Origin: SAR202 cluster bacterium
GTDB lineage: Bacteria; Chloroflexota; Dehalococcoidia; Lucifugimonadales; UBA826
DNA length: 64,000 nucleotides
Assembly (NCBI GenBank): GCA_009392815.1
Contig: VFFS01000045.1
Coordinates: 1-64,000, forward strand
Direction: 5' to 3'
Numbering within the stretch: position 1 is the stretch's first letter; the number at the start of each line of letters is the position of its first letter. Below are positions 28,935 to 37,676 of this stretch, piece after piece. The notes under the pieces are model-generated. The model was not told the DNA's origin, made no database searches, and saw only the letters and a program-made list of their open reading frames with translations. The position numbers and the translations under genes are program-made.

Positions 28935-30188
28935 TTAGAGCCCCGAGTCGTAGCCGGTCTCCTCAGTGATTATGGTTGTGAGTTCGTCAGCAAAGTCTTT
29001 TGCCTCTTCAGATGACGCAGCACCTTTTTCGCTCAACTTCTTCTTGAACTGATCAAACAACCATTCATCCTTCGTCCCATGAGGCATATCGAAAAATTCT
29101 CTGTCAAAGGAGGGTAGCTCACCTGGTCCAAAATAACCTTTGCCTCTAATTTCAAAGCCCTCGAGGTTATCTGTTCCTTTTCCGAGTACATTGCCAGTTT
29201 CAACGAAGTGCTCCATAACAGCAGGAGCTCCATATCTTTGAATCGGGCATGTCAGCATGCATATACCGCAACCTTCATACGTGGCCATAACAGGCCGGCA
29301 TCGGTCATACATAAGCTTGTGCTTCTCAGCTCCTCGCCACCACACTTTGTCCTTTACAAGGGCACGTCCAGGGCATCTATTGACACATACCTGGCATTCC
29401 TCACAAAACTTATGGAACCCGTAATCTATGGGCTTATCATAAGTAACTTCGGCGTCAGTGGTAATTATGAAAATTCTAGACCTAGACCCGAAGTGTGGAG
29501 ATAAAAGCTGGCCATTTGCTCCTAGTTGACCAAGACCAGCCTCTACAAACATTGGAATATACGGAGCGCTGTTATCGTTGGGGCTATGAATCTGTGCCCG
29601 ATAACCTAAGGAACGTATAAAGTCGGCTAACTCTAGGGCGTAACCACCTTCTTCTTCATAAGTTCCAAAATGCGCAAACTCGGCTTCCATACTTGGAATG
29701 GTCTGTGTTTGCCAGTAATCTTGTTCTAGGGCTAAGCAGATCGCGTGCTCATACTTCGCCCACCCCTTTTTACTCTTATATGTGTAGCGGCGGTCGTATT
29801 TCGTAAAACCAACTTCCCCGAAACCTAGATCACGCGCCTTCTCACGAATTTCATCAGTAACGTCTTTGCCTGCTACAACATCTCCTGTCGGCTCCACGCC
29901 ACCGGAGACAAAAGCAGCATCAACCAAAGGTTTATTTACTTTGTCGTGATGCTTTCTGTATTCATACATCTCACCAGTGTAAACAGTCCAAGTCCATTCT
30001 CGATCTGCAGCCTTTTCAATATTCTGCGTCTCCAACGGATAATTCCGACTGTAAAAATCTACATCCTGCTTCCTCTGGGGAATTCCGGGTACCGTGGCCA
30101 GTTCATCGGCCACTTGAATCGTAACGTCGTCATGACCCTTCTTTCTTCCAGGTCTATTAACCACATGGTGAACGCGCTTCAAAGTCAT
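28935..30188 (-). CDS. reductive dehalogenase-like / QueG-like 4Fe-4S protein
   Basis: CEECQVCVNRCPGRAL and CRPVMATYEGCGICMLTCPIQRYG (two 4Fe-4S motifs); preceding ANGQLLSPHFGSRSRIFIITTDAEV; no Tat signal. Confidence 0.82.
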   Translation of the reverse strand: MTLKRVHHVVNRPGRKKGHDDVTIQVADELATVPGIPQRKQDVDFYSRNYPLETQNIEKAADREWTWTVYTGEMYEYRKHHDKVNKPLVDAAFVSGGVEPTGDVVAGKDVTDEIREKARDLGFGEVGFTKYDRRYTYKSKKGWAKYEHAICLALEQDYWQTQTIPSMEAEFAHFGTYEEEGGYALELADFIRSLGYRAQIHSPNDNSAPYIPMFVEAGLGQLGANGQLLSPHFGSRSRIFIITTDAEVTYDKPIDYGFHKFCEECQVCVNRCPGRALVKDKVWWRGAEKHKLMYDRCRPVMATYEGCGICMLTCPIQRYGAPAVMEHFVETGNVLGKGTDNLEGFEIRGKGYFGPGELPSFDREFFDMPHGTKDEWLFDQFKKKLSEKGAASSEEAKDFADELTTIITEETGYDSGL

Positions 30189-36030: not shown

Positions 36031-36384
36031 TTAATTCAAAAGCTCTGCCAAGGCCTTTTTATCCGTTCCAACGAAAAGCTTACCTTTTCCAGAAATCAAT
36101 GGGCGTCGAATTAGCCTGGGTTCTTGGAGCATCAGTCCGACCAGATCCCCTTGGTTCAAGTTATCTCGATCAAGTTGGAGTTTCCTGAATGACGGGCTCC
36201 TAAATGAGAAGAAATCCTCCGGATTTCTAGATCCTATAATTCCAATCAACTCATCCTCGGAGAAAGGATCTTTAAAAAAGTCTCTCTCCAAAAGTTTGTA
36301 ACCAGCCTGTGAGAGCTCCGCACCCACTTTCTTGCATGTGCTTCAACGACCCCAGGTATAAAAAGTAATTGTATCGATTTCCAT
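36031..36384 (-). CDS. candidate selenocysteine-containing ArsC/Spx-family protein (in-frame UGA at codon 14; U-S-T-C motif)
   Basis: Minus-strand read from ATG 36384: MEIDTITFYTWGR-(TGA)-STCKKVGAELSQAGYKLLERDFFKDPFSEDELIGIIG...PRLIRRPLISGKGKLFVGTDKKALAELLN. ATG overlaps hom stop (TGATG). ORF track shows only the part after GTG 36327. Confidence 0.8.
36309..36327 (-). promoter_or_regulatory. putative bacterial SECIS-like hairpin
   Basis: RNA GUGGGUGC-GGA-GCUCUCAC: 5 bp (one G.U), U.U mismatch, 2 bp, GGA loop; loop begins 23 nt after the UGA (36343-36345). Confidence 0.5.
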
Positions 36385-37676
36385 CACTCCGCAACTCTAA
36401 TCATATTTCCAATGCCCGCTACAACACCCAAGTCCATTATGTCTTTAACAGCAATCTGAACTGATCTTTCCGTGGCCCTATGGGTCATTATAACCAGTTC
36501 AGCAGTCCCATGTTTCGGATCGAAACCTTTCTGTATAAAAGAAGAAATACTTATATTATTTTCTGCCAGTGCCGACCCGATTTGTGCTAAAACGCCAGGT
36601 TCATCCTTAGCTTCTAATCTCAAATAATACTTGGTCTGGAGATCAGAAATAGATTGCACCTTTATTGTCTCGGATAGCCTGACAGGATCCAGAAATGCAG
36701 CGTTGCCAGCAATATTCCGACCTATATTTATGATATCAGCCACGATAGCACTGGAAGTAGGCATTGACCCTGCACCTGGACCATGAAAAAGCACCCGCCC
36801 AGTGAGATCTGTCTCAATTTCTATAGCGTTGAGAACTCCATCAACTTTAGCAAGCATCTGATCCTTTTCTACCAGAGCCGGATGAACTCTAGCTTGGACT
36901 TCACCATTCGTCCTTGAGGATACAGCCAACAATTTAATCGTATACCCAAGTTCATCAGCATACTGAAAATCCTTGGCACTGAGGCCAGTTATCCCCTCAC
37001 AAAAAACATCATCATCTTTTACTTGTGCACGAAATCCAAGTGTAGACAAGATGGCAAGCTTATACGCAGCGTCTATTCCTTCAACATCATTAGTAGGATC
37101 AGGTTCTGCATAACCAAGTTCTTGGGCTTCTTTCAACACCGTCTCATAATCTATGTTTTCCGTGGACATCCTGGTTAGCATGTAATTCGTGGTTCCGTTG
37201 ATTATCGCCTTTATGCCATTAACTTCGTTGGCAACAAGGTCCCGCATCAGCGGCGATACAACAGGAGTACCCCCTGCCACACTTGCTTCAAATAGTACTC
37301 GCACGTCTCTTTCCCTAGCAATATCAAATATTTCAGGCCCGTGCTTTGCCATGACTTCTTTGTTAGCCGTAACAACATGTTTACCTGCTTTCAACGCAGC
37401 CAATATGAACTCAAGAGCCGGATGTTCTCCACCCATAACTTCCACGACAATATCAACATCATCTCTTTCAATTATTTCATCAAAGTTATCTGTGAACAGG
37501 CTAGGAGAAACATCAAATGAACGTGATTTAGACTTGTCTCTTACCAAGATTAACTTAAGATCAACATTCGCCCCAATCTGATTCGTGAGCGAATCCGATT
37601 TTTGGAAAAGAGCTTCAGCAACGCCAGAACCAACTACTCCCATTCCCAACATTGCTACACCTACAGACTTATTCAC
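36384..37676 (-). CDS. hom: homoserine dehydrogenase with C-terminal ACT domain
   Basis: AMLGMGVVGSGVAEAL, GGTPVV, NGTTNYMLTRM, EAQELGYAEPDPTNDVEGIDAAYKLAILS. Confidence 0.97.
   Translation of the reverse strand: MNKSVGVAMLGMGVVGSGVAEALFQKSDSLTNQIGANVDLKLILVRDKSKSRSFDVSPSLFTDNFDEIIERDDVDIVVEVMGGEHPALEFILAALKAGKHVVTANKEVMAKHGPEIFDIARERDVRVLFEASVAGGTPVVSPLMRDLVANEVNGIKAIINGTTNYMLTRMSTENIDYETVLKEAQELGYAEPDPTNDVEGIDAAYKLAILSTLGFRAQVKDDDVFCEGITGLSAKDFQYADELGYTIKLLAVSSRTNGEVQARVHPALVEKDQMLAKVDGVLNAIEIETDLTGRVLFHGPGAGSMPTSSAIVADIINIGRNIAGNAAFLDPVRLSETIKVQSISDLQTKYYLRLEAKDEPGVLAQIGSALAENNISISSFIQKGFDPKHGTAELVIMTHRATERSVQIAVKDIMDLGVVAGIGNMIRVAE

Follow-up and report, generated by a model that had tools for sequence, protein, structure and literature searches.

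Evidence for a selenocysteine-containing protein of the ArsC/Spx fold in SAR202 bacteria and their relatives

Introduction

When a small frame resembling ArsC and Spx proteins is interrupted by a UGA at the position of a redox-active cysteine, is the gene broken, is it wrongly delimited, or is the UGA read as selenocysteine (Sec)? The question is raised by a locus on the minus strand of a 64,000-nucleotide stretch (the window) of contig VFFS01000045.1 from a SAR202 cluster bacterium (assembly GCA_009392815.1), for which ordinary annotation would give a 98-residue fragment without the active site. Here, we propose with high confidence that this is a genuine selenoprotein gene, its UGA being read as Sec and its product most likely being a small thiol-selenol oxidoreductase of the ArsC/Spx fold.

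Results

Read on the minus strand from position 36384, the DNA runs ATG GAA ATC GAT ACA ATT ACT TTT TAT ACC TGG GGT CGT TGA AGC ACA TGC AAG AAA, and the read-through product begins MEIDTITFYTWGR-U-STCKK. The frame opens with the ATG at 36384, holds a single in-frame TGA (36345-36343) and closes with a stop at 36033-36031 (Table 1). The initial annotation had described this frame with its UGA, adding that the ORF track gives only a fragment from GTG 36327; direct translation reproduced sequence and coordinates exactly, and the mechanical ORF list does hold only a 98-aa piece for this gene. The stop codon of the homoserine dehydrogenase-like gene overlaps the selenoprotein start codon (TGATG), which suggests translational coupling of the two genes. 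Among UxxC/CxxU read-through frames of at least 80 codons lying outside longer ORFs, this one is the sole case in the 64-kb window. Because it is alone in this respect, its Pfam ArsC match crosses the UGA and the UGA is kept in 17 of 17 family copies (both described below), the UGA-containing frame is more than a product of chance.

Table 1. Features of the selenoprotein locus (positions in the window)
Feature	Positions	Strand	Evidence
ArsC/Spx-like selenoprotein gene (proposed), 117 residues, Sec14, motif U-S-T-C	36031..36384	-	Read-through translation; Pfam ArsC 5.3e-15; AlphaFold pLDDT 90.9; top PDB matches Spx
In-frame UGA as predicted Sec codon, at first Cys of Spx CxxC / catalytic Cys of ArsC	36343..36345	-	Conserved in 17/17 family copies and 88/109 wider homologues
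Predicted bacterial SECIS hairpin GUGGGUGC-GGA-GCUCUCAC, apical GGA loop at 36317-36319	36309..36327	-	Compensatory changes over 88 homologues; energy against synonymous shuffles
GTG listed as start by ORF finder, coinciding with 5' foot of SECIS stem	36325..36327	-	ORF list and hairpin coordinates
Homoserine dehydrogenase-like gene (by reading), adjoining the selenoprotein gene upstream	36384..37676	-	ORF list; same C-terminal sequence upstream in most SAR202-family loci examined

The read-through product matches Pfam ArsC (PF03960) over residues 9-113, across the UGA, with 55.9 bits (curated cut-off of this superfamily, 24 bits). Its top NCBIfam model is Spx/MgsR (TIGR01617) at 60.9 bits, under the cut-off of 75.05, which some of its relatives exceed; it also falls below the cut-offs of the Spx model NF002459 (55.3 bits against 123) and of the glutaredoxin-dependent arsenate reductase model TIGR00014 (29.9 bits against 106.05). 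In a phmmer search of the PDB the top chains were Spx proteins (6e-14), with the UGA residue aligned to the first Cys of the Spx CxxC. The AlphaFold model was made from an alignment of 13 relatives, and Foldseek placed Spx and ArsC structures at the top of its matches, with a TM of about 0.8. On this model we are confident in predicting a thioredoxin fold of the ArsC/Spx type. Positions that never vary in the alignment of family copies include W11, U/C14, C17, K19, R34, D35, E45, S63, P64, E88, P89, R90, R94 and P95.

Given these neighbours, might the protein be Sec-decoded and yet be a redox-sensing regulator that binds RNA polymerase, as Spx does, and not a reductase? Its nearest relatives in both sequence and structure are Spx proteins, and in Spx the corresponding CxxC is the sensor of oxidation. 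With the Spx/MgsR group (TIGR01617, NF002459) it shares the fold, the position of the CxxC and an RRP motif, but it has Sec for the first Cys, is shorter and falls below both curated cut-offs. The Spx loop with R47 and G52, residues known to contact the alpha subunit of RNA polymerase, is two residues shorter in the selenoprotein and not conserved, as seen in the PDB alignment and also against a B. subtilis Spx row. Because this loop is not kept, we consider a regulator of this kind unlikely; the bolder proposal, that a selenocysteine-based redox switch controls transcription in Spx fashion and forms a selenoprotein regulator widespread in Chloroflexota, is more doubtful still. An oxidoreductase is the reading that we prefer.

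The conservation of the UGA bears on whether the gene is intact. Genomes of the same family carry the gene in 15 of 16 cases (17 copies in total, the relatives being 41-78% identical to the query), and each copy is interrupted just once in frame, by a TGA that never changes position. A sample of 399 genomes from the phylum gave 49 with a match and 50 match rows, of which 43 have exactly one TGA and 7 have no stop (some being partial), with TAA or TAG in 0 of 50. Matches in the scan of species genomes came from SAR202 and other Dehalococcoidia, Smithella and other Syntrophaceae, other deltaproteobacteria, and archaea of the Nitrosopumilus group. Among 109 distinct wider homologues the codon is TGA in 88, from Chloroflexota and Thermodesulfobacteriota, and TGT or TGC in 21, of which 18 are archaeal and 3 come from Chloroflexota. 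Since only Sec forms went into the search profile, 88/109 is to be read as an upper estimate of the Sec share. Genomes assembled independently of one another share the UGA, which excludes a sequencing error at 36343-36345.

On the tree of homologues, the Sec/Cys label requires four changes. The Chloroflexota Cys forms (L127, L140 and L104; TGC/TGT) are placed among Sec forms, two of them on long branches, as would be expected of separate Sec-to-Cys replacements. A Cys relative of the same protein (CITC) is widespread in Nitrosopumilus-type archaea (L105-L122). Two genomes have two selenoprotein gene copies each: those of G005 (L025, L037) are almost the same, perhaps through contamination or assembly, and those of G002 (L031, L038) differ.

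In the homologue alignment a stem of 8 bp with a loop of 3 nt stands 15 nt after the UGA, as in GUGAGAGC-GUG-GCUCUCAC (L081), GCGAAAGC-GGC-GCUUUCGC (L144) and GCGAGGGA-GUU-UCUCUCGC (L059). Standard pairs fill 0.89 of the cells over 88 sequences. Random reassignment of partners lowers this share to 0.75 (sd 0.009), and shifts of the 3' side by as many as six positions leave no more than 0.62. Most stem pairs swap between GC, AT and CG with the place of the hairpin fixed: CG (53 sequences) alternates with TA (18) at pair 2, GC (53) with AT (14) at pair 3, and GC (38) with AT (38) at pair 5. The loop starts with G in nearly all 88. Sec genes show 7.1 pairs and a mean energy of -9.5 kcal/mol, against 4.5 pairs and -4.5 kcal/mol in synonymous shuffles, and the hairpin is thus not explained by protein coding. 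From the Cys homologues it is absent (2.3 pairs against 2.2 in shuffles).

The window's own hairpin is somewhat weakened: a U-U mismatch leaves 7 of its 8 positions paired, and one of these pairs is G-U. Its energy is -7.5 kcal/mol against a mean of -3.6 in synonymous shuffles, 5 of 100 of which are as low. Plain RNA folding of the 55 nt that follow this UGA gives nothing remarkable (z +1.27), but that measure is misleading because a SECIS is short; positional covariation is the right test. Pairing in the fixed register was not seen in a few distant members (L132, L135, L147, L149, L150 and L152); for L132 and L135, visual inspection allows a stem in a shifted register. As is characteristic of bacterial selenoprotein genes, the hairpin lies just downstream of the UGA and has a G in its apical loop. 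Because its changes are compensatory, because it is stronger than synonymous recoding gives and because Cys homologues lack it, we identify the hairpin at 36327-36309, on comparative grounds, as the SECIS, an element that the initial annotation had not described.

A nonsense mutation or sequencing error in a decaying or mis-assembled Cys-type ArsC/Spx gene would also leave one stop codon early in the frame, and would sit well with the failure to find selA in the assembly (see below). Such a gene, however, does not account for a UGA in all 17 family copies and in more than 80 distinct sequences overall, never replaced by UAA or UAG, nor for a frame that is otherwise open and conserved, nor for a covarying hairpin downstream. 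We judge this reading very improbable; the initial annotation had likewise held decay to be unlikely, and the open, conserved remainder of the frame and the identical UGA in every family copy bear it out.

Does the genome have the means to insert Sec? The assembly, of SAR202-type Chloroflexota, comprises 1.78 Mb in 90 contigs and is 87.9% complete. The search for sel genes that the initial annotation had proposed succeeded for selB (331 bits across the full model), tRNA-Sec (anticodon TCA, 65.9 bits) and selD (381.9 bits); selA was found neither in this incomplete assembly nor in one congeneric genome (55% complete). The selD gene (L006, contig C58, match 1501-2418) contains an in-frame UGA, read SCAGUASK, and the selenophosphate synthetase (SelD) of this genome is likewise a selenoprotein. 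Two weak selA matches (29.7 and 27.5 bits) were set aside as most likely PLP-enzyme paralogues.

Outside the genus, selA is present in 14 of 14 family genomes (400-452 bits). In two relatives it lies between a MoxR-like ATPase and a rarA-like ATPase, with a coaE-like gene beside the MoxR-like ATPase in one of the two (names by reading). Orthologues of the MoxR-like ATPase and rarA are absent from the own and congeneric assemblies, where only weak paralogues occur. Since the genes that flank selA in relatives are missing too, selA probably falls in an assembly gap, which is the simplest account; its loss in the genus is a less simple one. Both G000 and G004, of the window's genus, are without selA and its flanking genes and both keep the UGA-containing gene; the missing segment is common to the two, though both assemblies are simply incomplete.

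Since the frame is conserved beyond the UGA, some residue must be inserted there, and in principle codon reassignment or suppression could make it one other than Sec, such as Trp or Cys. We give this very little credence: the UGA occupies the place of a redox Cys and is linked to a SECIS hairpin, selB, tRNA-Sec and SelD are all present in the genome, and the window holds no second unmasked UxxC/CxxU read-through frame. Least probable of all, and not likely to be the true start, is GTG 36327, listed by ORF finders. A 98-residue protein begun there would be missing strand 1 and the two redox residues, although every relative conserves the protein sequence encoded upstream of it (W11, C/U14, C17 and K19 invariant), and the GTG is itself the foot of the SECIS stem.

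Discussion

Reading of the UGA as Sec is strongly supported by the sequence comparisons. The initial annotation had proposed this reading, at the Cys position of a 117-residue ArsC/Spx-like protein, and each part of the proposal has stood: the alignment shows Cys or Sec at that position in homologues, the Pfam match, the Spx chains of the PDB and the predicted fold agree on the identity of the product, and the conserved UGA, the Cys of other homologues, the covarying SECIS and the presence of selB, selD and tRNA-Sec all argue for Sec. Counting against it are the missing selA, the somewhat weakened hairpin of the window and a plain 55-nt fold that is not unusual.

What, then, might the protein do? 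SelB and tRNA-Sec would recode the UGA at 36345-36343 as Sec, directed by the hairpin at 36327-36309. As regards activity and substrate, we infer that Sec14, at the start of helix 1, would most likely attack an oxidised or disulfide-like substrate; Cys17 would act as the resolving residue, releasing the intermediate through a Sec14-Cys17 bond, and a thioredoxin-type reductant would then reduce that bond. Arsenate as the substrate is not supported by the model searches, because the TIGR00014 equivalog cut-off is failed.

The Global Ocean Sampling (GOS) survey of 2008 reported two related selenoproteins, "arsenate reductase 1" (pfam03960; UxxS; 77 sequences) and "arsenate reductase 2" (cd03032; UxxC; 42 sequences in 21 samples) (PMC2398784), and the initial annotation was thus correct in recalling ArsC-like selenoproteins from marine metagenomes. 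A review of 2026 lists the UxxC kind under NF041106, citing the GOS survey (PMC13188914). Compared by description only, "arsenate reductase 2" resembles the window protein in its ArsC/Spx-type domain, its UxxC and its occurrence in marine microbes; the survey text gives no host or sequence (PMC2398784). The window protein has the same UxxC, and its closest PDB chains are Spx. With "arsenate reductase 1" and TIGR00014-type selenoproteins it shares the ArsC superfamily and Sec in the redox motif, but has UxxC where they have UxxS, and its TIGR00014 score is 29.9 against 106 bits. With NF041106 (ArsC_rel_Se_1, ArsC family (seleno)protein) it has the superfamily and the UxxC motif in common (PMC13188914), but its score of 19.3 bits lies below the cut-off of 85, which none of 11 tested relatives reaches (best, 55.5 bits).

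Given the known Sec-containing ArsC relatives and these NF041106 scores, the window protein is therefore a new member of a known selenoprotein kind, and its subfamily probably lies outside the curated models. The novelty is modest: the branch, which is broad and for the most part lacks annotation, is under every curated NCBI cut-off, including that of the selenoprotein model NF041106, though some relatives pass TIGR01617. Our literature search found no report of selenoproteins in SAR202 or of a Sec-containing Spx.

The annotation error that removes the active site here probably affects the branch across SAR202, other Dehalococcoidia, further classes of Chloroflexota and syntrophic Thermodesulfobacteriota. 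Homologues found in SAR202, other Chloroflexota and Thermodesulfobacteriota commonly have Sec and not Cys (again as an upper estimate). The 88 UGA sequences and their covarying SECIS suffice for a curated selenoprotein model, and place selenium use in open-ocean SAR202 bacteria.

As to gene neighbourhood, the homoserine dehydrogenase-like gene is retained in most SAR202-family loci examined and not generally elsewhere, and conserved operon partners were rejected as a clue to function on that account. In L053 and L088, a gene resembling mutL comes after the selenoprotein gene. Elsewhere in the window, a 417-aa ORF (28935-30188) has two iron-sulfur-type cysteine clusters (CEECQVCVNRCP, CEGCGICMLTCP) and appears reductive-dehalogenase-like by eye.
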